DNA from: Acholeplasma sp. | GTDB taxonomy: Bacteria; Bacillota_I; Bacilli_A; Acholeplasmatales; UBA5453 | Assembly (NCBI GenBank): GCA_012839355.1 | Contig: DUNK01000005.1 | Location: forward strand, 1-40,318 | Direction of reading: 5' to 3' | Length of the DNA: 40,318 bases | Shown here: one piece after another, positions 5,100 to 24,811 of the stretch | Layout of the letters: every line of letters begins with the position of its first letter | Position numbering within the stretch: the first letter of the stretch is position 1 | The notes under the pieces: model-generated | The model's input: only the letters and a program-made list of their open reading frames with translations | Database searches by the model: none | What the model was told of the DNA's origin: nothing | Position numbers and translations under genes: made by a program

Positions 5100-5789
5100 C
5101 TAAAGTGGGTTTTTCTTTATTTGATTAAATGGTCTTGGATAACCTTTAACGCTTTTTTTCTTATCTATTATTATAATAGTTCTTTTACCTAATTGTAAGG
5201 GCAATTCAATATTTAATATATTTTTCAGTTTTCCACCTAATATCATTATACCATTTTTTGCTTCTTCAATCTCGCTTTCATAGTTGTCACCTTTCATTGC
5301 TAAAAAGGTTCCGCCGACCTTAACTAAAGGTAATGTGAGTTCACTTAAAATATTTAGTTGCGCAACAGCTCTAGCCGTTACAATCTCAAAACTTTCAAAG
5401 TGCTTTTTTGCGAACTCTTCCGAACGCATATTATACACCTTAACATTATCTAATTTTAAAAGTTTAAGAACACTCTTTAAGAAGTTTGCTTTCTTAGTTT
5501 GCGACTCAATTAAACTGAAGTTTATATCCTTGTTTATTATCGCCAAAGGGATGCCCGGAAATCCCGCACCTGAGCCAATATCAGCAACACTCATCCCACT
5601 CTTAAAAAGTCCTGTTTTTAGGAGTGTTAGTGAGTCATAAAAGTGTTTAATTAGCACTTCTTCATAATCAGTAATTCTCGTTAAATTATACTTTTTATTT
5701 TCCTCTAACAAGTAATTATAATAAGCCTTAAAAGCCTCTTCTTGTTCGATTGTTAAATTGATGTTTAAATCTTTAAATAGTTCTTTCAT
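5100..5789 (-). CDS. rsmG: 16S rRNA (guanine-527-N7) methyltransferase RsmG
   Basis: 229 residues, typical length. The SAM-binding motif I is seen as [15 protein letters not shown] (GSGAGFPG at 72-79), with the family-specific TARAVAQL downstream. RsmG (GidB) methylates G527 of 16S rRNA with SAM. The start ATG overlaps the TGA of mnmG, so the two are translationally coupled, the near-universal gidA-gidB pair. The stop is TAG, 14 bp before the parB start. Confidence 0.96.
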
Positions 5790-7630
5790 TTTAGTGTCCT
5801 TAAATATATTTTTAAGATAGATATATCTGTTGGGTTAACGCCACTAATTCTCTTCGCTTGACCGATTGTTTTTGGTCTTCTTTTTGAGAGTTTTTCTCTT
5901 GCTTCTGTAGCGATGTTTTTTATTTCTTCATAATTAATATTTACAGGTATTAAAATATTATCATCATACTTCATCTTATTAACTTTTACACTTACATCTT
6001 CAATATATCCATCATATTTTATTTCAATTTCTACATGCTCTAATACATCATCAGAAAACTCTTTATCAATAAATAATTTGATAATTTTATAATCAATCTC
6101 TGGACGTTTTAAAAGTGTTTTGATTGATTCTTTTTGTTTAATTGTTGGTAGTCCATTTTCTTCTAAAAAGGCATTGGTTTCTTTATTAGGTAATAAATAT
6201 GTTTCGCTTATTAATTCTTTAACTTCTTCTATATCTTTCTTTTTATTTATATACTTTTCATATAACTTATCATCTATTAATCCAAACTCATACGCATAGT
6301 CTCTTAACCTTAAATCAGCATTATCATTTCTTAAAAAGAGACGATACTCAGCTCTTGTTGAGAAAAGTCTATAAGGTTCGTCTGTGCCTTTACTAACTAA
6401 ATCATCAATTAAAACTCCAATATAAGCTTCATCTCTGCCTAAAATAAATGGGTCTTTTCCATCAATCTTTAAGCTCGCATTAATGCCTGCGATTAAACCT
6501 TGACCTGCTGCTTCTTCGTAGCCACTTGTGCCATTTATTTGTCCAGCACAATAAAGATTATTAATTAATGTTGTTTCTAGGGTTTGTTTTAGTTGTGTGG
6601 GGTTAATTGCATCATATTCTATCGCATATGCGTATTGAACTATTTCTGCGTTTTCTAACCCAGGAATAGTTTTTAAAATTTCTTCTTGCACATCTTTTGG
6701 TAGTGCCGTGTATAATCCTTGAATATATATTTCATCATTTAATAACGATTCAGGCTCTAAAAATAGTAAGTGACTATCATGATTATGAAACCTTACTATT
6801 TTATCTTCTATTGAAGGACAATATCTAGGTCCTGCTCCTTCACTAGCGCCACTATACATTGTTGTTTGGTGAAGATTATTTTTAATTATTTCATGTGTTT
6901 TTAAATTTGTTCTTGTTATATAACAAACTTCATCTTTTAAACTTATTTCAGCATCTTTATCAAAAGAAAACCTATATTTATTGTTGCCTATTTGAACTTC
7001 TAAATTAGATACATCAACAGTCTGTTTTCTCACTCTTGGTGGACTAGAGGTTCTAAGTCTCATTAACTTAAAGCCTGCTTCTTTTAAATCGTTAGATATA
7101 CCTTTTGTTGTAGGTTGTTTATCAGGCCCTTCATCTATAACATTTAAACCAATTAAGATATTACTCGCTAAATATGTTCCAGCAGTAATAATAACTGTTT
7201 TACTATAAATGTTTTCCCCTGTTTTTAACTTAACGCCTTTAACTGTTTTTTCTTCAATTATTAAGTTTTCTACTAACGCCTCAATTAAAGTTAAGTTTTC
7301 TTCTTTTTGTAAGAGTTCTAACATCTTTTTCGGATAAAGAACCTTATCTGTTTGAGCCCTTAAAGCGTGTACCGCTGGACCTTTAGATGTATTTAACATT
7401 TTAATTTGTAGTTTTGTAGCATCAGCAACCCTACCCATTAACCCCCCTAAAGCATCTATTTCTCTAACAACTATTCCCTTAGCTGTACCACCAATCGCTG
7501 GATTACAACTCATAAAAGCTACTCGCGATAAATCGCCAGTAACTAAAGCTGTTTTTTTATTCGTTTTTGCTGCTGCATAAGCTGCCTCTACACCTGCGTG
7601 TCCGCCGCCTACAACAATTACATCATACAT
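5786..7630 (-). CDS. mnmG: tRNA uridine-5-carboxymethylaminomethyl modification enzyme MnmG (GidA)
   Basis: 614 residues, close to the family length of about 620-630. The N-terminal FAD site [12 protein letters not shown] (6-17), the segment [10 protein letters not shown] and the C-terminal [11 protein letters not shown] helix are all diagnostic. With MnmE it modifies wobble U34 of several tRNAs using FAD and 5,10-methylene-THF, which links it to the folate enzymes encoded later in the window. The usual TGTPPRI stretch reads TSSPPRV here, a mild variation. The ATG is preceded by AGGAG. The only DNA between the transketolase stop and this start holds a terminator hairpin. Confidence 0.97.
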
Positions 7631-12787: not shown

Positions 12788-13324
12788 TTATTTTTGTGTT
12801 TCATCTTCTTCTGTTGGTTTGTTAGTAAATATTGGTTCGCCAACAATTAAAAGCCTTTTAGCAAAAAAACCCGTTATAATACCTGCTGGTATGCTTAATG
12901 CCAACATTATTGGTGCATAGTAAATTGAGGCCGGCAATAAAACAATAGCAGCAAGCAACTGACCAACAACGTGCATGAACGAACTAACTGCTGAAACCGC
13001 AACAATACTAAATATATTTATCTTTTTAAAGATTGCAATTACAAGTATTGAAACTACTCCACCAGATAAACTTAAAATAAATGTCGGTCCAAAACCTGAA
13101 GGACTTAATAGACCACCAAAAAATAGTCTTATTAAACCAACTGCTATTCCTTCTTTCCAACCATAAGCATAAAAGACTATTAAAATAATAATATTCGCAA
13201 AACCAATTTTAAAAGCTGTGCCTGGTATTAGTTGGATCATTGATTCAATTATATTAACTAATAATGCTATCGCAGTTAAGACCGAAAGTATTACTAGTTT
13301 TCTAACTCTTTCATTATTGTTCAT
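12788..13324 (-). CDS. Gx transporter family membrane protein (heptaprenyl diphosphate synthase component I family)
   Basis: 178 residues from ATG 13324 (a TTG at 13327 is less likely because the ATG forms a TGATG overlap with the preceding stop). About five hydrophobic segments, with the family pattern VNIIESMIQLIPGTAFKIGFAN, FGPTFILSLSGG and LLSPSGFG. Members are ECF-type S-component-like membrane proteins, often misnamed heptaprenyl diphosphate synthase component I. Encoded directly after NusG-II and ApbE proteins, an arrangement known from flavinylation and extracellular electron transfer loci. Substrate unknown. Confidence 0.8.
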   Translation of the reverse strand: MNNNERVRKLVILSVLTAIALLVNIIESMIQLIPGTAFKIGFANIIILIVFYAYGWKEGIAVGLIRLFFGGLLSPSGFGPTFILSLSGGVVSILVIAIFKKINIFSIVAVSAVSSFMHVVGQLLAAIVLLPASIYYAPIMLALSIPAGIITGFFAKRLLIVGEPIFTNKPTEEDETQK

Positions 13325-13836
13325 CAAATTACATCATCCAATTCATTCTTAGTAAATTTGATTGTAATAAAGTTTGGCAAACAAACAATTGGTACATCGT
13401 TTGATTCGCCTTGTTTACTACAAATATTATAAGGACTTGTCTCTTCAACAACTCTCATTTTCTTTGTTTTTTTATTGTAATAAATCTTAACATATCCTAA
13501 ATTTCCTTTGACAAAAAAGAACTCTTTATTATTAGTTTCATCTTTATAAATTAAGACTCCGTCACCTTCTTTTATTTGCTCGAAAACCTCACCTTTAACC
13601 ATTAGTTTTTCACCAGCAATTTCTGGCATTTCATCGGTTGTGTAACTAGCGGTTAATAGCGTAGTTTCGCCGCTTTCCATATTAACCTTAAACAGTGTTT
13701 GGTTATCATAAGCAACAATCGCTAATTCACCTTTAGGCTTTAATGCGTAGTAAAGAATGAACGCAATCCCAACAAGCAAAATAAGCGTTCCAATCAAGAT
13801 TAAGTCTCTCAAAATTTGGGGCTTTTTTTCTGTCAT
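13324..13836 (-). CDS. Membrane-anchored NusG domain II protein
   Basis: 170 residues. One N-terminal TM segment (about 13-32), then a beta-rich domain ending in ETSPYNICSKQGES...PIVCLPNFITIKF, the NusG domain II hallmark with two cysteines. Such stand-alone proteins commonly accompany ApbE and Gx transporters; their task is unclear. Its ATG overlaps the TGA of apbE and its TGA overlaps the next ATG, so the three genes are coupled. Confidence 0.82.
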   Translation of the reverse strand: MTEKKPQILRDLILIGTLILLVGIAFILYYALKPKGELAIVAYDNQTLFKVNMESGETTLLTASYTTDEMPEIAGEKLMVKGEVFEQIKEGDGVLIYKDETNNKEFFFVKGNLGYVKIYYNKKTKKMRVVEETSPYNICSKQGESNDVPIVCLPNFITIKFTKNELDDVI

Positions 13837-14924
13837 TTTATTTCTCCAACAATCTCATATTGTACAAAATCTTCTTCGCTTAAATTCGTTACGATAGAAT
13901 AGTCAAACAAATATAAAATATAGCCTATATCGTGTTCTTCTAAAAAGGAAATTGCATCTTCATCTGTCATTAAAAATACAGCCGTTGTATAGACATCTAA
14001 AAGTATACTATCATCGCCAACTAGTGTTACTTTATAAAATGTATTTACAGGCTCTAATGTAAATGGTGAAACAAGGTGATGTATTTTAGTATAATATCCT
14101 TCGTCATCATAAACATTTACGCTTTGTTGGGCGCTACCACTTGTTGCAATGTGCTTATTCCCACCAACGATATACCCTAACATTCCATCTTGGTATAAAT
14201 ATTTTTCACCTATTGAATTATCATCTTTAATATATGTTTTAATTGATTTCCCTTTTGGTGGTAAACCAATAGCAATCGATGATGAACCGGCATTTATTTT
14301 AAATCTTTTAATGCCTTTTTCTTCTTTTAAATAATCATAAGCAAGTTGTGTTGCATAACCTTTTGCGATTGCACCTAAATCTAACAACATCTTATCATCA
14401 TCTAAATAAACTGTGTTATTTTCTTTATTAATAATTACTTTGTTTAAGTCAGGTGTTGTATATGTAGATAAACTATCTAAAGCTGCTACATAAGCTTCTT
14501 TTGGTACAACTAAATAATTATGAGCGAGAGTTTTCCAAACTGCTGTAACCTCTCCTAAACCAATATTAAAATACCCATTTGTTTCTTCATTTAAACCAAT
14601 AGATAGTTCAAGCAATTCTATCAATTCTTCTCTTACTTCAATGGGGCCTACTTTTCTGTTTTCATTTATCACATAAATATTGTTTAAATTGTAATATGGG
14701 CTATTTTCATCTACTTCATTTCTTCTATGACTTGAAGTTAATTGACTATATAATGAAAAAATATCTTTAACACCTTCAAAAGCTCCCTTGCTTTTTTCAT
14801 ATAACTGAACAGTAATCACTGTCCCCATAGCATTAAAACTCTTTTCCTCTATGTATGTGCCACAAGATATTAAACTTACTAATGCGCTAATTAAAATAAA
14901 CATGCTAAATATTTTCTTTTTCAT
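13833..14924 (-). CDS. apbE: FAD:protein FMN transferase ApbE, lipoprotein
   Basis: 363 residues. Lipoprotein signal with lipobox LISC (Cys21). Family motifs: FNAMGT near the N-terminus, INAGSSSIAIG, LDLGAIAKGYATQLA and a C-terminal DxxTTAVFLM (here DVYTTA). Transfers FMN from FAD to a Thr in target proteins outside the membrane. Likely targets in this window are RnfD (T168) and RnfG (T155 and T422). First gene of the three-gene operon with NusG-II and Gx transporter; an extended -10 promoter lies at 14948. Confidence 0.93.
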   Translation of the reverse strand: MKKKIFSMFILISALVSLISCGTYIEEKSFNAMGTVITVQLYEKSKGAFEGVKDIFSLYSQLTSSHRRNEVDENSPYYNLNNIYVINENRKVGPIEVREELIELLELSIGLNEETNGYFNIGLGEVTAVWKTLAHNYLVVPKEAYVAALDSLSTYTTPDLNKVIINKENNTVYLDDDKMLLDLGAIAKGYATQLAYDYLKEEKGIKRFKINAGSSSIAIGLPPKGKSIKTYIKDDNSIGEKYLYQDGMLGYIVGGNKHIATSGSAQQSVNVYDDEGYYTKIHHLVSPFTLEPVNTFYKVTLVGDDSILLDVYTTAVFLMTDEDAISFLEEHDIGYILYLFDYSIVTNLSEEDFVQYEIVGEIK

Positions 14925-15040: not shown

Positions 15041-15865
15041 ATGAAAAAAGAGAGAAGCATTGAAGTTTTAATGAATAAGTTAAAGGGCGGAGTAATTATG
15101 GATGTTACTTCTCTAAGCGAAGCTAAAATAGCTAAAGAAGCTGGAGCGGTTGCTATTATGGTTTTAGAAAAGGTTCCTGCCGATATTAGAAAAGATGGCG
15201 GTATCGCTAGAATGAGTGACCCAAAACTTATTAAAGCAATAAGAGCTAATATAGATATTCCTATCATGGCTAAAGTAAGAATTGGCCATTTTACTGAAGC
15301 GCAAATCTTAGAAGCTTTAGATATAGATTTTATTGATGAAAGTGAAGTTTTAACAAGAGCTGATTATATGTATCATATCGATAAAAAGGCTTTTGAAACT
15401 CCGTTTGTGTGTGGTGCGAAAAACTTAGGCGAAGCATTAAGAAGAATAAACGAAGGAGCTTTAATGATTCGTACAAAAGGTGAGGCTGGTACCGGTGATG
15501 TTAGCCAAGCAGTTAATCACATAAGAACTATCACAAATGAAATTAAAAACTTAAAACATCTAAGCGGATTTGCTGAAAAAGAAAACGTTCCATTAGAACT
15601 AGTAAAAAATGTAAAAGATAGTGGCAGACTCCCTGTCTTAAACTTTGCCGCAGGCGGCATTGCTACTCCTGCTGATGCAGCATTGATGATGCAACTAGGC
15701 TGTGATGGTATATTTGTCGGTTCAGGTATATTTAAATCAAGCAATCCAGCAAAAATGGCAAAAGCAATCGTAGACGCAACCAAACACTATAATGATAATA
15801 AAAAACTTGCTGAAATAAGCGAAGGTTTAGGCGCAGCAATGTCAGGAATAGATCTGGCTAAATAA
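15041..15865 (+). CDS. pdxS: Pyridoxal 5'-phosphate synthase lyase subunit PdxS
   Basis: 274 residues, somewhat shorter than the usual ~290, lacking the C-terminal LLPEQRMQERGW-type tail. Catalytic residues appear intact: D21, K78 (IMAKVRIGH) and K146 ([10 protein letters not shown]), plus [20 protein letters not shown]. Condenses ribose 5-phosphate, glyceraldehyde 3-phosphate and ammonia to PLP. The glutaminase partner PdxT is normally the next gene but is not found here; the gene ends in its own terminator. PLP is the cofactor of GlyA in this window. Single-gene transcription unit on the plus strand. Confidence 0.96.
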
Positions 15866-15883
15866 TTATATATCTAAAGAGAA

Positions 15884-15911
15884 AAACGAGAAATAGTTTC
15901 TCGTTTTTTTT
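15884..15911 (+). terminator. Terminator of pdxS
   Basis: Perfect 10-bp stem AAACGAGAAA / TTTCTCGTTT, 3-nt loop TAG, followed by a T run. Confidence 0.9.
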
Positions 15912-15958
15912 ATAATACCTACAATATGAACTTATAAAATAAGCATCTAACCTTATAT

Positions 15959-15970
15959 TACCTATCGGTA
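15959..15970. promoter_or_regulatory. Distal hipBA operator-like palindrome
   Basis: TACCTATCGGTA: half-sites TACC and GGTA separated by 4 bp, identical in layout to the site at 16058. Lies 99 bp upstream of that copy. A degenerate version TTCCTTTTCGGTAA is at 16007-16020. Confidence 0.55.
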
Positions 15971-16026
15971 TTATTAGTTAAAATAAACGCATTATTATAA
16001 TTTTTATTCCTTTTCGGTAAAATTTG

Positions 16027-16055
16027 TTGCTTTTAAGCTTTAATGTTAGTATAAT
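16027..16055 (+). promoter_or_regulatory. hipBA promoter
   Basis: TTGCTT (16027-16032), 17-bp spacer, TATAAT (16050-16055). The -10 is directly followed by the proximal operator palindrome. Confidence 0.6.
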
Positions 16056-16057
16056 TA

Positions 16058-16069
16058 TACCGAGAGGTA
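16058..16069. promoter_or_regulatory. Proximal hipBA operator-like palindrome over the ribosome binding site
   Basis: TACCGAGAGGTA, same TACC-N4-GGTA layout as 15959. It sits between the -10 box and the ATG at 16075 and includes the purine-rich ribosome binding site, so a bound HipB would block the transcription start (inference). Confidence 0.6.
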
Positions 16070-16074
16070 ATATT

Positions 16075-16278
16075 ATGGATGTGAAAACAATCGGAAAATT
16101 AGTTAGAAACAAACGAAAAAAATTAAATATCACACAAGCTTATTTAGCCGCAGCAGCCAATACTGGTGTGCGTTTTATTAGCGATTTAGAAAACGGCAAA
16201 CCTACTATTGAACTTGGAAAAGTGCTTCATGTTTTAAAGACCCTTAACATTAAACTTGAGGTAATTGATAATGACTAG
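16075..16278 (+). CDS. hipB: HipB-like XRE-family antitoxin
   Basis: 67 residues from ATG 16075, chosen because GAGAGGTAAT precedes it; an upstream in-frame ATG at 16024 overlaps the promoter. Helix-turn-helix: IGKLVRNKRKKLNITQAYLAAAANTGVRFISDLENGK, typical of HipB/XRE proteins, followed by KVLHVLKTLNIKLEV as in HipB. It would neutralise HipA and repress its own operon through the TACC-N4-GGTA sites. Overlaps hipA by 8 bp. Confidence 0.88.
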   Translation: MDVKTIGKLVRNKRKKLNITQAYLAAAANTGVRFISDLENGKPTIELGKVLHVLKTLNIKLEVIDND

Positions 16279-17452
16279 ATTATTGAATGTATACATGAAT
16301 AAAAATAAAGTTGGTGTATTAAAAGAAAAAAATGGCAAAACATTTTCTTTTTCATATGATCATAATAGTAAAAGTTTTATTTCTTTATCTATGAAAAGTT
16401 TGGATAAAGAATATGATGATAAAGTAGTGCGTCCATTTTTAGAAAACCTTCTTCCGGAAGGCAAGATTATCGATTATATCGCTAAAGTGCATTTAGTCTC
16501 TAAAAATAATCCCTTTTCTTTGTTATCAAAAATAGGTGAAGATTGTGCTGGCGCCATTTCTTTTACTAATAATGATGTTTTTGTTTCACAACCTTTAAAC
16601 TATTTACCTAAAGATGATTTTTTATCTTTACTTGAAAATAACGAAAAGGGGCTTTCTTACTATAAAAAAGGCATGAGACTTTCTTTGGCTGGTGCACAAG
16701 ATAAAATATCCTTGTTAATTAAAGATGGCAATTACTATTTGCCTAGTTTTGATAATCCTTCCACTCATATAGTTAAATTTAATAGTCCAAATTTCCCTAG
16801 TTTGCTTATTAACGAGTTTTTTGTAACAAAGCTTGCTAATAAATTAAAAATCTCTGTTTCATTAATTGATTACATAAATGAACCATACCCACACTTAATT
16901 ATAGAAAGATATGATAGATCTAACAATTTAAGGATTCACCAAGAAGACTTTTGTCAAATATTGAGCGTCAGACCGCATAATAAATATCAAAAGGAAGGCG
17001 GCCCAAGTTTTAAAAATATAGTGGAAATTATAAACAAAGACTTATCAAATCCAGCACTAAATATAATCAATCTTTCACGCATCTTAATATTCAATTATCT
17101 TATAGGTAATTGCGACTATCACTCTAAAAATATTTCAGTTTTATATAAAGACGACTTAAACTTAAGCCCTTTTTATGATTTATTATCAACATATATCTAC
17201 GATGATTTGTCTAAAGATATGGCGATGTCAATTAATAAAATATATAACATTGATTTAATCACCAAAGAAGACATAATCAAAGAATTTGATAGTTGGGGTA
17301 TTCACGGGAAAAACATGTTTTCTTTAATTATGAAAGAGTTTAACAATATCATTCCAATTGCAAAAAGCATAGTAAACGATACTAAATATCATCAAACCGA
17401 ACTATTAAAAATAGTAGATATCATTGAAAAAAACTACAACAAAATTATTTAA
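16271..17452 (+). CDS. hipA: HipA-like serine/threonine kinase toxin
   Basis: 393 residues from the ATG at 16271 (a TTG at 16265 is weaker). N-terminal HipA_N domain (VYMNKNKVGVLKEKNG ... FLENLLPEG), SLAGAQDKISLL (138-148), ATP-lysine region HIVKF (K169), catalytic loop GNCDYHSKN (279-287, D282 and N287) and metal-binding LSPFYDLLS (D303). All key kinase residues are present, so the toxin may be active. E. coli HipA phosphorylates GltX; the target here is unknown. Transcribed with hipB; a bidirectional terminator follows. Likely a mobile module inserted between housekeeping genes on the minority strand. Confidence 0.92.
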   Translation: MTRLLNVYMNKNKVGVLKEKNGKTFSFSYDHNSKSFISLSMKSLDKEYDDKVVRPFLENLLPEGKIIDYIAKVHLVSKNNPFSLLSKIGEDCAGAISFTNNDVFVSQPLNYLPKDDFLSLLENNEKGLSYYKKGMRLSLAGAQDKISLLIKDGNYYLPSFDNPSTHIVKFNSPNFPSLLINEFFVTKLANKLKISVSLIDYINEPYPHLIIERYDRSNNLRIHQEDFCQILSVRPHNKYQKEGGPSFKNIVEIINKDLSNPALNIINLSRILIFNYLIGNCDYHSKNISVLYKDDLNLSPFYDLLSTYIYDDLSKDMAMSINKIYNIDLITKEDIIKEFDSWGIHGKNMFSLIMKEFNNIIPIAKSIVNDTKYHQTELLKIVDIIEKNYNKII

Positions 17453-17462
17453 TATTTAAAAC

Positions 17463-17511
17463 AAGCCCTTTAAGTTCTACAACAAACTTTAAAGGGCTTA
17501 TTTCTTTTTTT
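17463..17511. terminator. Bidirectional terminator between hipA and the Na/Pi transporter gene
   Basis: AAGCCCTTTAAAGTT-type inverted repeat (AAGCCCTTTAAG ... CTTTAAAGGGCTT) with T run on the plus side and A-rich sequence on the left. The genes on both sides converge here. Confidence 0.8.
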
Positions 17512-17518
17512 CTATTAT

Positions 17519-19141
17519 TTAACTCTTAGCGTGTGCGATAAAGTTCATATGATCAGCTGCACGCTCTAAGTTTGAAACTAAATTGATTAATACCGGGCTT
17601 GAATCAGGCGAACAAACTCCTTCTTCTAACCTTGCAATATGAGATTCAATAATTGTTCTTCTAAGTTCGTCTACTTTATCTTCTAATTCATCAACTAGTT
17701 CTAACTTTTCATATGATGGCGAATTAAACGCATCTAACATAGCGATAAATAGGTTTTCAATCACTTCAAACATATGTTTTAAATCTTCTACGGCAACATC
17801 GGTAAAATGAAGTTTTTCATACACATATGTGTCTGTATATTTTGTTAAGTTATCTGCTAAATCGCCAATTCTTTCTAAATCATTTACTGTATGATATAAT
17901 GCTGAAACTTCTAATTTTTCATTAAATCTTAAGTTTTCGCCAGACAACTTAACTAAATAGGATGTAATTTGTTTATTAATTCTATTAGTGTTTCTAATCT
18001 TCGTTTGAATTGTTTCTTTTCCTGTTACATCTTTATTGATAAAGGAATGAAAACCACTCCTTAAACAATCCATTGCGTTTTCTGCCATAACTGTCGTTTC
18101 TTTTTTAAGTTGATGAATTGCGATTGATGGTGTTTGCAGCAATCTTTCATCTAAAACAACATTTTTAACCTCTAATCCTTCTTTATCAGGAATTAATCTT
18201 TCACTAATCTTAACAAATACTTTCGCAAAAGGTAAAAATAAAAACGAACAAGTTAAATTAAAGAGTGTATGGAACATTGCTATTTGCGTTGCTTCTTTTG
18301 TAAATGCTATCCCTAAAAAGTCATCTTTAAATCCTGGAAGAGCAAGTAAAATTATAAAGAATATCGCGCTACCAAACACATTGAAAAGCAAGTGAATTAA
18401 CGATGCTCTTCTAGCATTAGTGTTTGCTCCTATTGACGATAACATTGCTGTGACTGTTGTACCAATGTTTGTTCCTAAAATAATATATAAAGGCGCGTTC
18501 CCGCCACCGCCAATCGTCATGCCGGCAATTGACATTGAAATAATAATTGCAGTAATTGCACTGCTACTTTGAAAGATTGCAGTAATTGCAGCACCTATTA
18601 ATAATAGTAAAAGCGGATTTGAAAGAGATGTTAATAAATTAGTAATCTCCGGTGAATCTTTAAATGCATCCATTGAACTACTTAATAAATGTAACGCAAT
18701 AAAAACAACACCTAAACCAGCTAAAACATTTCCAATTACTTTTGTTCTATCTTTTTTAGCTAATAATGTCATAAAAGCTCCAATAAATGCAAACAACATC
18801 GCAAATATAACAAAGTCAAAAGCTTGAAGTGATGCTATTTGAGCAGTAACTGTTGTCCCAACATTCGCCCCCATAATAATTGCAGTTGCTTGAAGTAATG
18901 TTAATACCCCAGCATTAACAAGTCCTACTACCATTACCGTAGTAATACTTGAAGATTGGACAATTGCTGTTGTCCCTAAACCTATCCCAAACCCAATTAA
19001 TCTATTATTGGTCGTTTTGTTGAACATTTCTTCTAGTTTAGTGTTAGCAATTTTTCTCATATTACCAGATAGCATTGCCATACCGATTAATAATGCTCCC
19101 ACTCCACCTAACATTAATAAAATTGCTTCTAAATACTGCAT
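17519..19141 (-). CDS. Na/Pi cotransporter family protein with PhoU-like domain
   Basis: 540 residues. The N-terminal half has about eight hydrophobic segments and the two inverted Na_Pi_cotrans repeats with QSSS motifs (VQSSSITTVM at 61-70 and FQSSSAITAI), plus GANVGTTVTA and GTNIGTTVTA. The C-terminal ~200 residues are helical and PhoU-like (EKLEVSALYHTVNDLERIGDLADN). Imports phosphate with sodium (family knowledge). It lies 145 bp downstream of rnfB, so it may use a sodium gradient built by Rnf (inference). The leader contains two palindromes. Confidence 0.92.
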   Translation of the reverse strand: MQYLEAILLMLGGVGALLIGMAMLSGNMRKIANTKLEEMFNKTTNNRLIGFGIGLGTTAIVQSSSITTVMVVGLVNAGVLTLLQATAIIMGANVGTTVTAQIASLQAFDFVIFAMLFAFIGAFMTLLAKKDRTKVIGNVLAGLGVVFIALHLLSSSMDAFKDSPEITNLLTSLSNPLLLLLIGAAITAIFQSSSAITAIIISMSIAGMTIGGGGNAPLYIILGTNIGTTVTAMLSSIGANTNARRASLIHLLFNVFGSAIFFIILLALPGFKDDFLGIAFTKEATQIAMFHTLFNLTCSFLFLPFAKVFVKISERLIPDKEGLEVKNVVLDERLLQTPSIAIHQLKKETTVMAENAMDCLRSGFHSFINKDVTGKETIQTKIRNTNRINKQITSYLVKLSGENLRFNEKLEVSALYHTVNDLERIGDLADNLTKYTDTYVYEKLHFTDVAVEDLKHMFEVIENLFIAMLDAFNSPSYEKLELVDELEDKVDELRRTIIESHIARLEEGVCSPDSSPVLINLVSNLERAADHMNFIAHAKS

Positions 19142-19285: not shown

Positions 19286-19603
19286 TTATATTTTTATAAC
19301 AACTGCCGAACCATCTTCATTTGGATTGTTTTTTAAATATTCCATAATAGGATTAAAGTTTTCATCGCGTTTGCCTGGTTTACAACGAGATAAGTTGCCT
19401 GCTTCACCATTTACGATTTCAGTTGCGAAAGCATGACAGCTTGGCGTTCCACACGCTCCACAATTATAACCTGGCAAGAGTGCTTCTACTTCGCCTATTC
19501 TTTTATCTTCTTCTACTTGTAAATATTGACTTGCTAAAGCTAATATTACTCCAAAAATTAGTCCGATTGCGCCTATAATTAATGTTGACCATAAAATTGT
19601 CAT
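19286..19603 (-). CDS. rnfB: Minimal RnfB (TM helix plus one FeS domain)
   Basis: 105 residues against about 190-330 in other RnfB proteins. One N-terminal TM segment (about 5-26), then the FeS domain with C48, C51, C56 and C74 (CGACGTPSC ... C). The ferredoxin-like 2[4Fe-4S] part that normally follows is absent, and the 140 bp after the stop hold no coding remnant, so the short form is not a fresh frameshift. RnfB normally accepts electrons from ferredoxin. Its ATG overlaps the TGA of the small CxxCH protein. Last gene of the rnf operon. Confidence 0.85.
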   Translation of the reverse strand: MTILWSTLIIGAIGLIFGVILALASQYLQVEEDKRIGEVEALLPGYNCGACGTPSCHAFATEIVNGEAGNLSRCKPGKRDENFNPIMEYLKNNPNEDGSAVVIKI

Positions 19604-19806
19604 AGTGAGTTTTCCTCCTTAAATTCGATTATTACTTCTTCAGGAATTAAATGTTGTCGTTTAGCGTGACATCCTGAACAAGTTTGAGCTTCTTCATATC
19701 TTTCTTGTAACTCTTCAGGAATTGGTGTTTTTTCATTAGCCGTATAACTAATAAAATATACCGATACCACTAATACTATTATTCCAATTATTACTAAATA
19801 GATCAT
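19600..19806 (-). CDS. Small membrane-anchored CxxCH protein in the rnf operon
   Basis: 68 residues, not recognised as a named family. One TM segment (about 2-20), a charged stretch, then QTCSGCHAKRQ with C43, C46 and H47, i.e. a CxxCH motif as in c-type haem sites, though a metal or disulfide site is equally possible since no cytochrome maturation gene is seen here. Between rnfA and rnfB with overlaps on both sides (TAATG with rnfA, ATGA with rnfB), so it is surely co-translated with the complex. May supply a redox or assembly function missing from the short RnfB (inference). Confidence 0.8.
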   Translation of the reverse strand: MIYLVIIGIIVLVVSVYFISYTANEKTPIPEELQERYEEAQTCSGCHAKRQHLIPEEVIIEFKEENSL

Positions 19807-20396
19807 TATATCAATCCTGCAAATCCTAAAAAAGCTAAACTCATTAAAGCTGCCGTAATAAAAGCAATCGGTAATCCTTTAAATGCTCTAGGGACATCTT
19901 GACTATCTAATTTAATTCTAATTGCGCTGAAGGCGATTAAAACTAGCGAATAACCTAATGCACTGCCTAGTGTAATTACCATAGCATCTAAAAAATTAAC
20001 TGCTTCACCGCCGCTTGCAACTCCTAATGCAATACCTAATACTGCACAGTTAGTTGTAATAAGTGGCAAGAAGACCCCTAAACCTCTATAAAGACCTGGA
20101 GAAAACTTTTTAATTACTAATTCCAATAATTGGACAACTGATGCAATTACTAAAATAAATGCGATTGTTTCTAAAAATACAATATTTAACGGTTTTAAAA
20201 TATAAAAATATATTGGATAAGTAATCGCTGTTGAAGCAAGCATAACGAGTATAACTGCTGCGCTCATTCCAAATACGTTTTCTATCTTTTTAGAAACTCC
20301 TAAAAATGAACATACGCCTAAGACTTTACTTAATAAAACGTTGTTTATTAATAAGCTTGCGATAAGTGATGCTAATAAAACTCCTACTAATTCCAT
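19806..20396 (-). CDS. rnfA: Rnf complex subunit RnfA
   Basis: 196 residues, normal length, six hydrophobic segments. Recognised by LLINNVLLSKVLGVCSFLGVSKK near the N-terminus and PLITTNCAVLGIALG in the middle, each with a conserved cysteine that in related complexes helps bind a membrane FeS cluster with RnfE. Starts in a TAATG overlap with rnfE. Confidence 0.95.
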   Translation of the reverse strand: MELVGVLLASLIASLLINNVLLSKVLGVCSFLGVSKKIENVFGMSAAVILVMLASTAITYPIYFYILKPLNIVFLETIAFILVIASVVQLLELVIKKFSPGLYRGLGVFLPLITTNCAVLGIALGVASGGEAVNFLDAMVITLGSALGYSLVLIAFSAIRIKLDSQDVPRAFKGLPIAFITAALMSLAFLGFAGLI

Positions 20397-21106
20397 TATT
20401 CAGCCGCCGCCTTTCTTGCTTGTAATTCTTTCGCTCTCTTAATGCCTGCGCGATACTTCTTATTATTGTCATATGCAACAAACGTTGCTAATAAAACTCC
20501 GATAATTAAATATGCTCCCATTGGTTGAATTAACATACTAATTCCATATTCGCTTGGGAATAATCTTAATGTTACTTCAAATGGTAAAGGTAATAATACA
20601 CCTAACTTAATTGCGCCTGTGCCTAATGCTTCTCTAAACACAGCAATCAATAGAAGGGCCAACATAAAACCTAAACCACTGCCTAAACCATCTAAGATTG
20701 ATTTACCTACCGAATTATCTTTAGCGAAAGCTTCTGCTCTACCTAAAACGATACAGTTAACTGTAATTAAGGCAATAAATACTCCTAAACTACTTGCGAG
20801 TGCTGCCGCATACGCATCAACAAACATTTTCATCATTGTAACAACTGTCGCAATTATCAAAATATATGCTGGAATTCTAATCTCATCAGAAATAACTTTT
20901 CTTAACATTGAAATGATTGCATTAGTAATTGCTAGTACTATTACAACCATTATCCCCATCCCTAAAGCACCTTCAACTGTGTTAGAAATTGCAAGTGCTG
21001 GACATAGACCTAATGTTAAAGTGAATACTGCGTTTTGTTTAAAGATTCCACTTAAGAAAATATCTTTATTTGATACTTTTTGTTTATCTTTTACTTTTTT
21101 ACTCAT
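20396..21106 (-). CDS. rnfE: Rnf complex subunit RnfE
   Basis: 236 residues. Homologous to RnfA with LTLGLCPALAISNTVEGALGMG and LITVNCIVLGRAEAFA, both holding the conserved cysteine. Six hydrophobic segments, basic tails. The start overlaps the rnfG stop by 8 bp. Together with RnfA it forms the membrane core. Confidence 0.95.
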   Translation of the reverse strand: MSKKVKDKQKVSNKDIFLSGIFKQNAVFTLTLGLCPALAISNTVEGALGMGIMVVIVLAITNAIISMLRKVISDEIRIPAYILIIATVVTMMKMFVDAYAAALASSLGVFIALITVNCIVLGRAEAFAKDNSVGKSILDGLGSGLGFMLALLLIAVFREALGTGAIKLGVLLPLPFEVTLRLFPSEYGISMLIQPMGAYLIIGVLLATFVAYDNNKKYRAGIKRAKELQARKAAAE

Positions 21107-22427
21107 TAGTAATCACCTCTTTAATCGCGTTGAATATAGCATTTAATGCATCAGCTGATATTGTTGAACCTGTAACACTTTCAACATTTAAATTTTCAAC
21201 TGCTAAACCATTTAAAGCTTCTAGCGCACTATAATAATTTTCATAATGATTTAGTGTATGCTCATTAACTAAATGAATAAGTCCCACAACTTTTCCTTCT
21301 GTATCTACTCCAACCATTATTGTTAATAATTTATCTGGGACATAATGGTGTAAGTCCATTAAAATAGTACCCGTATAAGTATAGCCAACTAAATTATTTT
21401 CTGCATCATAAACTGCTGCTTTTTCAATAACTATTTCTGTAGCGGTAAACTCTTCATCAACAACTCCTGTATGTCCTTCGCCAAATATCTTTTGATAAGC
21501 CGTTCTGATATCTGGATTAGCCGTTGTCCTAATTGCAGCAAACAGCGTATTTAAGGCGTTTCCAACCGCTTCGTTGCCTGCTACAATAGTTATCTCTAAG
21601 TTTGCCATCATCTGTCCACTTAAATTATTAAGTGCATCTTTATATGCCTTAGTGTCTAATGTATGTTCTTCTTCATAAACACCTTTAAGTTCGCCATCAA
21701 TTGTCATACCAACAACTACTGTTAATGCTTTCTCGTCAACTAGCGTTGTTGCTTTATAAGCATAACCTAAAAACTCATTATTTGCATCTTTAACTTCTAG
21801 TTTTTCTCTAACTACATCTTCAGCACCAAACTCTAAAACAACTGTCCCTGTTGCACCAATTCCAAAGAGTGTTTCAAATGCGTCTAATTGAACTGATACA
21901 ACATAATTATGTGCAACTTCTCCAACCTCTTTAATTAATCTATCTAAGAGTGAACCTGTATCTGTTGCACCGGCTAAGTTATTGATGCCTGCCAAACCAT
22001 CTAATGTGTTTCCTCTTACTCGGTCATTATCTAAGAACCCATCATCGCCTTCATATTTTTCAGGATAACCTGGTGTGTGTTCATAACTTAAAACTTTAAT
22101 TCCTTTAATTGCTCCTTCTGGTGTAGCAGCAACTAGTAAGTCAATTAAACCTCTAGAGTTTGAACCTTTAGTTCTAAATGCATGACCAACTACATTTCCG
22201 CTTTTGTCAATGACTTTAACATATTCATATACATATGTGCCATCAACTTCTTCAATTTCCACCTTATCTAATTCAGGGAAAAATTCTTTATATGCTTTTC
22301 TAGCCTCTTTTGTTTTATTTTGTTCAATGATTGGTTCTGTAATCCAGTTAGCAACGCTAATTAAAAGTCCACAAACCAAACCAATGATTGTAAGTATTAA
22401 GGCTGATTTTAATATGTTTTTATTCAT
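21099..22427 (-). CDS. rnfG: RnfG with three FMN-binding repeats
   Basis: 442 residues, about twice the usual ~200. One N-terminal TM helix (about 7-29) then three consecutive FMN_bind-like units. Unit 1 (about 65-180) ends with NNLAGATDTGSLLDRLIKEV, flavin-accepting Thr expected at T155. Unit 2 (about 208-300) ends with IVAGNEAVGNALNTLF: the Thr is replaced (E286). Unit 3 (about 340-442) ends with VTGSTISADALNAIF, Thr T422. Units 2 and 3 are clearly alike (VGYTYTGT / LGYAYKAT; HTL.; ALN.LF). FMN would be attached by ApbE. Operon position between rnfD (TAATG overlap) and rnfE is normal. Confidence 0.92.
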   Translation of the reverse strand: MNKNILKSALILTIIGLVCGLLISVANWITEPIIEQNKTKEARKAYKEFFPELDKVEIEEVDGTYVYEYVKVIDKSGNVVGHAFRTKGSNSRGLIDLLVAATPEGAIKGIKVLSYEHTPGYPEKYEGDDGFLDNDRVRGNTLDGLAGINNLAGATDTGSLLDRLIKEVGEVAHNYVVSVQLDAFETLFGIGATGTVVLEFGAEDVVREKLEVKDANNEFLGYAYKATTLVDEKALTVVVGMTIDGELKGVYEEEHTLDTKAYKDALNNLSGQMMANLEITIVAGNEAVGNALNTLFAAIRTTANPDIRTAYQKIFGEGHTGVVDEEFTATEIVIEKAAVYDAENNLVGYTYTGTILMDLHHYVPDKLLTIMVGVDTEGKVVGLIHLVNEHTLNHYENYYSALEALNGLAVENLNVESVTGSTISADALNAIFNAIKEVITNE

Positions 22428-23506
22428 TAGTTAAAACCTCCTACTCCAGCTACAACAATTAAAATTGCAACTACTAATGTAGCTCCATATAAAGTCCATG
22501 ATTTCCAAGAGTAGTTATTTTTTGACCACTTATGATAATCGATTAATGGTGAAAACATATTACAAATTAAAATTGTATATGCTACCCCTTCTGGGTTTGG
22601 CCCAAACAATCTAAAGATTGCTACTAATGAACCAATTAGTAACCCATAGAGCCATCTACCTGGTTTAGTTGTTGGGGCAGTCACAGGATCTGTCACCATA
22701 TAAACAGCACCATATAATAATCCGCCACCTAATAGTTGATATAAAATAATTAAATGAGCATTACTTGCATCTAAGATTAGCGCTGCTACTCCAATTAAAA
22801 CTGTAAATGATAATAACATTGAAGCTGTAATGCGCCAATCTGCTGCTTTTCTAATAAATAAGTATAAACCACCAACAATAATTAGTAGTGCACAAATCTC
22901 TCCCATTCCCCCAGGAATTTTTCCCAAGAAAAGATCTAAGAGAGAATAATTATTAAGCATATCAGGAATATTCATAATTGAATCTCCGATTGCTGTGAGT
23001 GGTGTCGCTCCTGCTACAGCGTCTAATTGTGTATATTTAAATGACGCCGCAAATGACACGTGTGCGATAACAAACGCTACTGCTGCAGGGTTAAAGATAT
23101 TCGCTCCTAATCCTCCAAAGACTAATTTACCAAATAAGATTCCTAAGAAGGCCGCAACGATTACAACATAAATTGGTAATTGTGCAGGGACCATTAAAAC
23201 AAATATTAAACCACTAATTGCTGGTGTAATAATGTTTAATAATCTTATTTGTTTAAATCTTTCAATCATTCTCACTTTAAAGCCTTCAAACTTTGGATGA
23301 GGACGATGTCTAATCATTACTGTTACTACTTCTGTTAAGATCATTACAGCTACTGCAATAATAATTCTTAAAAAAGCATCTAATCCAAACTTCCATACCG
23401 CAAAAACAACTAATGGAAATAATGCGATTAAAACATCAATCATCATTCTTTTAGTTGATGCTGGTTTACGGATATAAGGACTTGTTTGTTTCGTAAATGT
23501 TGCCAT
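22427..23506 (-). CDS. rnfD: Rnf complex subunit RnfD
   Basis: 359 residues, multiple TM segments (about nine or ten). The covalent FMN motif is LDAVAGATPLT with acceptor T168. FGGLGANIFNPAAVAFV and the C-terminal GGLLYGAVYMVTDPVTAPTTKPGRWLYG are typical of RnfD/NqrB. Nine bp after rnfC; stop overlaps the rnfG start. Confidence 0.96.
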   Translation of the reverse strand: MATFTKQTSPYIRKPASTKRMMIDVLIALFPLVVFAVWKFGLDAFLRIIIAVAVMILTEVVTVMIRHRPHPKFEGFKVRMIERFKQIRLLNIITPAISGLIFVLMVPAQLPIYVVIVAAFLGILFGKLVFGGLGANIFNPAAVAFVIAHVSFAASFKYTQLDAVAGATPLTAIGDSIMNIPDMLNNYSLLDLFLGKIPGGMGEICALLIIVGGLYLFIRKAADWRITASMLLSFTVLIGVAALILDASNAHLIILYQLLGGGLLYGAVYMVTDPVTAPTTKPGRWLYGLLIGSLVAIFRLFGPNPEGVAYTILICNMFSPLIDYHKWSKNNYSWKSWTLYGATLVVAILIVVAGVGGFN

Positions 23507-23515
23507 ATTAACCTC

Positions 23516-24811
23516 CTATTTCACTAGCGCTTTTGCTAAACGCATATATTCTGTTAAATGTATTTTAGATGGACATACATAACTACATAAGCCACACTCA
23601 ATACATTTATTCACTTCTAAACTATTAATTACATCTTTATCTTTTTGTTTATAAGCTCTCATTATTTGAACTGGTTGAATATTAACCGGACAAGAGTACA
23701 CGCATGATGCACAGTTAACGCACGGCTCTTCAACAAATTTTTCTTCGTTTAAAACGACTAGGCTAGTTGTTGTTTGGCTAACGATAAAATCGTCAGAGGT
23801 TAAGTTAGTTCCCATCATTGGTCCGCCAATGATTAAAACTTTATTTTCTTCATCTCTATATCCGCCACACATTTCAACTAAATCTTTCACAGGTGTACCA
23901 ATTCTAACATAAAAGTTTTTCTCTTCTTTAATGCCATTGCCAGCGACAGAAAAATATCTTAACATCATTGGCAATCTTTGCGTTACGGCATTATATAGTC
24001 CATATAATGTGCTTGTGTTAGAAACAATTATTCCATGATCAACTGTTAAATCACCAACCGGAACTTTAATTCCTAATGCTGATTTGATTGTTTGTAATTC
24101 CCAACCTTGCGGATAAAAACATTTGATCATTTTAACTTCTAAATCATAATCTGGAAAATCTTTGAATGCTTCATTAAATTTAACTGCTAACTCAGGGTAT
24201 TTCTCTTTAAATACTACAACTCCTTTTTTAGCATCTACAGAACGCATCGCATAAACTAAACCTTCTGTAATTTCACGAGCGTGCGACTTCATTAACTGAT
24301 AATCGCTAATGATGTATGGTTCACACTCAACACCGTTTGCTAATACATATTCAACCGGTTTATCAGTTTTGTATTTAATAAACATCGGGAATGCTCCTCC
24401 GCCAAGTCCAACAAGTCCCGCTTTTTCCATTATTTCAACTAAATCTTTTTTAGTTAATTTTTTAATTTCTTTCTCTGTTCTTGGTTTAACATTTTCGTGT
24501 AGTTCGTATTTAAAATCATTTTCAATTTTTATACATTCTACTTTACTTCCTAAACCATGAAGTTTTTGTTCTATTCCTACAACTTTACCGCTCACCGTTG
24601 AATAGATTGGTTGATCAAAGAAACCTCCATGACGCGTTCCGATTAATTGACCCATCTTAATTTCATCACCAGGAGCTACACAAGTATCTCCTTTTGGACA
24701 TCTTAAGTCTGTAATCGGAATATAAATGTATTTAGGGTCTTTTACTTCTTCTACCAACATATCTCTGCGCATTTCTTTAAAATCAGGAATACATCTAGTT
24801 TTTTCGGTCAT
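23516..24811 (-). CDS. rnfC: Rnf complex subunit RnfC
   Basis: 431 residues. GLVGLGGGAFPMFIKY is the nucleotide/FMN-binding SLBB-NuoF-like segment; the C-terminal region has two [4Fe-4S] motifs, C364-x2-C-x2-C-x3-C374 and C403-x2-C-x2-C-x3-C413. Peripheral NADH-side subunit. Shorter than proteobacterial RnfC because it lacks the Ala/Lys-rich tail. The ATG is 9 bp after the glyA stop, so glyA and rnf appear to be one operon. Confidence 0.96.
   Translation of the reverse strand: MTEKTRCIPDFKEMRRDMLVEEVKDPKYIYIPITDLRCPKGDTCVAPGDEIKMGQLIGTRHGGFFDQPIYSTVSGKVVGIEQKLHGLGSKVECIKIENDFKYELHENVKPRTEKEIKKLTKKDLVEIMEKAGLVGLGGGAFPMFIKYKTDKPVEYVLANGVECEPYIISDYQLMKSHAREITEGLVYAMRSVDAKKGVVVFKEKYPELAVKFNEAFKDFPDYDLEVKMIKCFYPQGWELQTIKSALGIKVPVGDLTVDHGIIVSNTSTLYGLYNAVTQRLPMMLRYFSVAGNGIKEEKNFYVRIGTPVKDLVEMCGGYRDEENKVLIIGGPMMGTNLTSDDFIVSQTTTSLVVLNEEKFVEEPCVNCASCVYSCPVNIQPVQIMRAYKQKDKDVINSLEVNKCIECGLCSYVCPSKIHLTEYMRLAKALVK

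Follow-up and report, generated by a model that had tools for sequence, protein, structure and literature searches.

The stretch of DNA analysed here (40,318 nucleotides, hereafter the window) belongs to a MAG of the Acholeplasmatales (0.96 Mb, 86% complete, 41 contigs) and contains a complete and unbroken rnfCDGEAB run, all on the minus strand. The rnfG gene occupies 21099-22427 (442 residues, ATG at 22427, stop codon ending at 21099), as the sequence-only reading had placed it. It lies between rnfD on its start side and rnfE downstream, overlaps rnfE by 8 bases, and encodes three FMN_bind-type units after one N-terminal membrane helix. Upstream of it are found rnfC (23516-24811; 431 residues with an NADH/FMN domain, SLBB and two 4Fe-4S motifs; TIGR01945, 350.7 bits, over cut-off) and rnfD (22427-23506; 359 residues; TIGR01946, 212.6 bits, over cut-off; it carries a flavinylation motif of its own, DAVAGAT), and it is followed by rnfE (20396-21106; 236 residues; PF02508), rnfA (19806-20396; 196 residues; TIGR01943, 230.7 bits, over cut-off) and rnfB (19286-19603; 105 residues; PF04060). 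Both conserved [2Fe-2S] cysteines are kept in RnfE (C35 and C118) and in RnfA (C29 and C117), giving the full set of four that characterises a canonical Rnf, and all the redox residues that were checked in RnfA, RnfE and RnfD are kept. RnfB is composed of a membrane helix and one Fe-S domain with four cysteines; it matches TIGR01944 over positions 7-89 of 190 only, and the ferredoxin-like 2x[4Fe-4S] part of canonical RnfB is absent from it. The idea that this short RnfB is a peculiarity of the genome was rejected, since an RnfB of about this length occurs commonly in the class.

Further along the same strand are the genes of a flavin transferase, ApbE (13833-14924; 363 residues; PF02424, 151.6 bits; the sole apbE found in the genome), of a NusG domain II protein (13324-13836; PF07009), which accompanies apbE beside rnf in relatives, and of an ECF-transporter-like / Hpre_diP_synt_I membrane protein (12788-13327; PF07456), another companion of apbE. 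These three genes (14924-12788) come directly after rnfB in most relatives. In the window, rnfB and the apbE cluster are separated (15041-19141) by genes for a Na/Pi cotransporter and a PdxS-like protein and by an HTH/HipA pair. The same genome also encodes POR and ATP synthase alpha/beta-type subunits. Neither further FMN_bind proteins besides RnfG nor an extracytosolic reductase partner were found in the 86% of the genome that is covered, and the FAD_binding_2 matches consist of two short stretches of 30-32 positions, one of them in a MnmG-like ORF of the window (5786-7630).

At its N-terminus RnfG has a transmembrane segment (about residues 3-36; 22320-22421), as indicated by a phmmer alignment with the C. 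tetanomorphum protein (7zc6_G), which covers residues 6-121 as a whole, and by a long helix in the structure model. RnfG shares this membrane helix, the FMN_bind fold and the location between rnfD and rnfE with the canonical RnfGs (7zc6_G, 9eri_G and 8ahx_G), which are its best matches in sequence and in fold; in these, about 190-240 residues accommodate a single FMN_bind unit with one covalent FMN, whereas the window protein has three units in 442. The NCBIfam rnfG model, TIGR01947, matches residues 10-126 only (45.1 bits, E 1.2e-11), under its threshold of 102 bits, which is a naming threshold and not a biological feature; judged by its sequence, the window RnfG is divergent from this model and longer than it. 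The Pfam FMN_bind profile scores 37.4 bits on the whole protein (cut-off 22) in two stretches; applied to each unit alone, it recognises units 1 (20.7 bits) and 3 (19.0 bits) and gives no match on unit 2.

Because Pfam is blind to unit 2, a clade-specific unit profile was made from the sequences of relatives and then built again with the window left out. This held-out profile recovers unit 1 at the canonical RnfG position (residues 45-168; 21924-22295; i-E 1.9e-23), unit 2 (residues 183-299; 21531-21881; i-E 4.5e-15) and unit 3 (residues 310-437; 21117-21500; i-E 1.9e-24), the matches themselves spanning residues 46-168, 184-284 (envelope to 299) and 311-435. The respective scores of these matches are 69.5, 42.5 and 72.8 bits. 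In the shuffling test the three units score 74, 47 and 77 bits, to be compared with 12.6 bits for the best of 2000 shuffles per unit and 6.3 bits at most for the other ORFs of the window. Pairwise identity among the three units is 27-42%, with 42% between units 2 and 3.

At the structural level, the AlphaFold model of the full RnfG displays one strand-helix order three times over (pLDDT 76.9), and RnfG is its first structural match in Foldseek; confidence is low in unit 2 and in the arrangement, and the relative placement of the units is unreliable (pTM 0.45). Modelled alone with 50 related units, unit 2 reaches a pLDDT of 89.4 and a pTM of 0.84. In the PDB it is matched best by RnfG subunits, followed by NqrC, and the matches to five RnfG chains have a probability of 1.00 each, yet weak E-values (1e-3 to 1e-2). 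According to this model, unit 2 is folded as an FMN_bind domain. The three-unit architecture that had been proposed from the letters is thus recovered both by the held-out profile and by the structure models.

T155 (21963-21965), E286 (21570-21572) and T422 (21162-21164) share one column of the unit profile, exactly at the places given in the sequence-only reading. The flavinylation consensus is D-x-x-[S/T]-G-A-[S/T]; a review of ApbE reports that FMN is no longer attached once the acceptor Thr is replaced by Ala, that A-to-V or G-to-A leads to about 50% flavinylation, and that D-to-A has a minor effect (PMC12052999). Around the predicted acceptor T155, unit 1 (NNLAGAT) keeps the Thr, Gly and Ala and deviates from the consensus twice (D to N, S/T to A), and unit 3 (ESVTGST), with T422 as predicted acceptor, also carries two deviations (E and S). 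In this clade the RnfD motif, too, often has an Ala where the consensus has S/T, and that of the window is an example. In view of this and of the tolerance described in the review, two covalent FMNs on the window RnfG, at T155 and T422, are likely. In unit 2 the acceptor is lost with the whole motif (TIVAGNE), the loop is shortened, and the unit is very probably empty of flavin. A compensated frameshift behind E286 was considered and rejected, as no alternative frame, inspected by eye, restores GAS or GAT.

Relatives were gathered with an RnfD alignment, a contig search with the RnfG protein alone having found none, and 80 named loci were obtained from Acholeplasmataceae, Anaeroplasmataceae and allied Bacilli. 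The acceptor position is S or T in 230 of 230 readable units from these loci, a count that includes recognised units only and in which the S of some units from giant RnfGs stands in a poor motif (e.g. AHSS). E286, the only residue other than S or T among the aligned units, is therefore a unique loss, and the extra units of the relatives look selected for flavin attachment. A Glu in place of the acceptor, with the motif gone and the loop shortened, could also indicate that the extra units are decaying leftovers and that unit 1 alone matters, as could the presence of a single rnfG where relatives have two and the small size of the genome. We regard this as decidedly unlikely: T422 is present in unit 3, whose score is as high as that of unit 1, no break occurs in the reading frame through all three units up to the overlap with rnfE, and the acceptor is conserved throughout the relatives' units.

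In the RnfD tree the window lies within a clade where every other member has two adjacent rnfG genes, with 2+2, 3+2 or 2+3 units (4-5 in total), so that its single three-unit rnfG is the smallest set of the clade. The sister groups have one single-unit rnfG gene of 170-240 residues. The statement that a usual RnfG has one domain is accordingly valid for the solved RnfGs and for the sister clade, but not for the clade of the window itself. Another group has an RnfG of 610 residues with four units, and a further one (L103, L104, L106, L108, L113 and L123) a single giant RnfG of 1353-1555 residues with 9-10 recognised units. The clade of these giant RnfGs is related to Acholeplasmatales, and the motifs of several of their later units are weak.

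With two-gene sets of 4-5 units in the nearest relatives, the window gene appears as a reduced form, and its interpretation as an expansion was rejected on the basis of gene counts and of the RnfD tree. The present form of the gene would be accounted for by a fusion of two rnfG genes, a deletion between them or the loss of the second one. The linker before unit 3 (TANPDIRTAYQKIFGEG) resembles that of the relatives' second rnfG (KEPNPKITETPYETLFGEG), but the relatives' own linker between units 2 and 3 also has NP, which weakens this likeness as a sign of fusion. The last units of adjacent rnfG genes are 82% and 93% identical within a genome (L053 and L056), which suggests recent duplication or gene conversion. 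Such near-identical units could mislead an assembler, and in a MAG of 41 contigs the three-unit gene might be an artefact fusing two rnfG genes. This is highly improbable, as units 2 and 3 of the window, at their level of identity, offer no shared repeat behind a collapse, a three-unit rnfG is also present in L054 and L055, and the overlap of rnfG with rnfE is regular.

Rnf has already been reported in Acholeplasmataceae (PMC11122141, PMC4221730) and also in further Tenericutes from the environment (PMC7301438). Multi-flavinylated RnfGs in RNF clusters were described by Meheust et al. (2021, eLife, PMC8238504), who proposed a branching path to extracytosolic acceptors. Like these proteins, the window RnfG is encoded in an RNF operon and has more than one FMN_bind domain; it differs by one unit without acceptor residue and by its clade, the wall-less Acholeplasmatales. 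Tandem FMN_bind proteins are known to carry several FMNs (PMC10339131), and many of them are arranged as beads on a string (PMC11334425). In the soluble SaFMN3 and CbFMN4 each FMN is attached to a Thr by ApbE (PMC10339131); their domains are more than 80% identical, flavinylated and found outside Rnf, whereas the window units are far more divergent and one of them is dead. Multi-unit RnfG is thus already known, and the dead middle unit is the individual mark of the window gene.

Rnf is a ferredoxin:NAD+ oxidoreductase, and in the canonical path electrons travel from ferredoxin through RnfB, the [2Fe-2S] cluster of RnfA/E, the RnfG flavin, the RnfD flavin and RnfC to NAD. This path operates with one RnfG flavin, so that extra RnfG flavins cannot be required for it. 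Multi-flavin proteins have been proposed to act like multi-haem cytochromes. In our assessment it is rather probable that the window RnfG functions as the extracytosolic flavin subunit in the Rnf of an anaerobic, wall-less member of the Acholeplasmatales, reduced from a two-gene set, and that the complex serves as a pump and an electron outlet. ApbE would, with good reason to expect so, attach FMN to T155 and T422 and leave unit 2 bare, the latter most probably persisting as a spacer domain. Unit 1 would provide the canonical RnfG flavin between the iron-sulfur cluster of RnfA/E and the flavin of RnfD. Unit 3 could hang outside as a second flavin, draw electrons off the canonical path and pass them to a soluble extracellular acceptor, and the Rnf complex would in this way be both pump and outlet. 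Without an acceptor in unit 2, electron transfer requires direct contact between units 1 and 3 or a swinging motion, and a relay from unit 1 to unit 3 is uncertain given the dead middle unit. Moreover, the full ferredoxin branch is kept in the window, so that its Rnf need not export.

Instead of leading outwards, the flavin of unit 3 could act within the complex, as an electron buffer or as another possible step from RnfG to RnfD, and an external acceptor would then not be involved. The sufficiency of one RnfG flavin in canonical Rnf argues against this. Furthermore, relatives have anything from 1 to about 10 units and RnfD shows no corresponding change, which fits outward reach better, and the extra units are kept in relatives devoid of RnfB. 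The complete ferredoxin-to-NAD path of the window agrees with an internal role, as does the partner reductase that was not found in the genome, and in SaFMN3 the FMNs on three near-identical domains have a single potential, which suggests that no direction is built in (PMC10339131); on balance we consider an internal role unlikely. As for the combined pump and outlet, the suggestion that the extra flavin lengthens the electron path towards an external acceptor is an idea published in 2021 (PMC8238504). Nothing in the window shows it, but the comparison of gene sequences in relatives favours it.

This comparison rests largely on six loci without RnfB (L093, L110, L114, L120, L127 and L070), which come from three MAGs and from the species Acholeplasma oculi, A. 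granularum and A. equifetale. A genome search gave no RnfB in any of the six genomes, while two control genomes gave E of about 1e-41. RnfE and RnfA are degenerate in these loci and devoid of all four conserved [2Fe-2S] cysteines. POR gave a match in 0 of 6 RnfB-less genomes versus 5 of 5 RnfB-holding relatives tested (Fisher p 0.002, uncorrected for kinship). Five of the six loci form one clade in the tree and the sixth may be separate, so that one or two independent events are represented. The other half of the path is preserved: RnfC keeps the Fe-S cysteines and the NADH-site sequence (four checked of the six), RnfD keeps its acceptor motif, and the RnfGs have two to three units each, three or four in total, with intact S/T acceptors. 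With the ferredoxin arm gone, the only remaining route in these loci runs from NADH through RnfC, RnfD and RnfG outward.

A one-way route from NAD(P)H to extracytosolic flavins has been proposed for Nqr/Rnf-like two-subunit systems (PMC8238504, PMC11334425), which use the same half of the path as is kept by the RnfB-less Acholeplasma. These systems are without RnfA/E, in contrast to the window, which has the whole Rnf set, A, E and B included. The literature searched, subscription journals lying outside it, contained no text naming both 'Acholeplasma' and 'RnfB', and within this scope the half-Rnf of Acholeplasma appears to be undescribed.

More widely, and only tentatively, we propose that the Rnf of Acholeplasmataceae may be an NADH-driven electron outlet with the multi-FMN RnfG as its external wire. 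Acholeplasma would represent the end state, in which the tandem RnfGs remain together with RnfC and RnfD after RnfB, the iron-sulfur cysteines of RnfA/E and the POR family have been lost, and the window organism would represent a double-duty form that combines the whole ferredoxin branch with the outlet. The single natural loss of an acceptor at E286 offers a built-in negative control for flavinylation. Moreover, a clade with RnfGs of one to about ten units, together with cousins whose Rnf has lost its ferredoxin half, makes the outlet hypothesis testable in cultured, wall-less Acholeplasma species.
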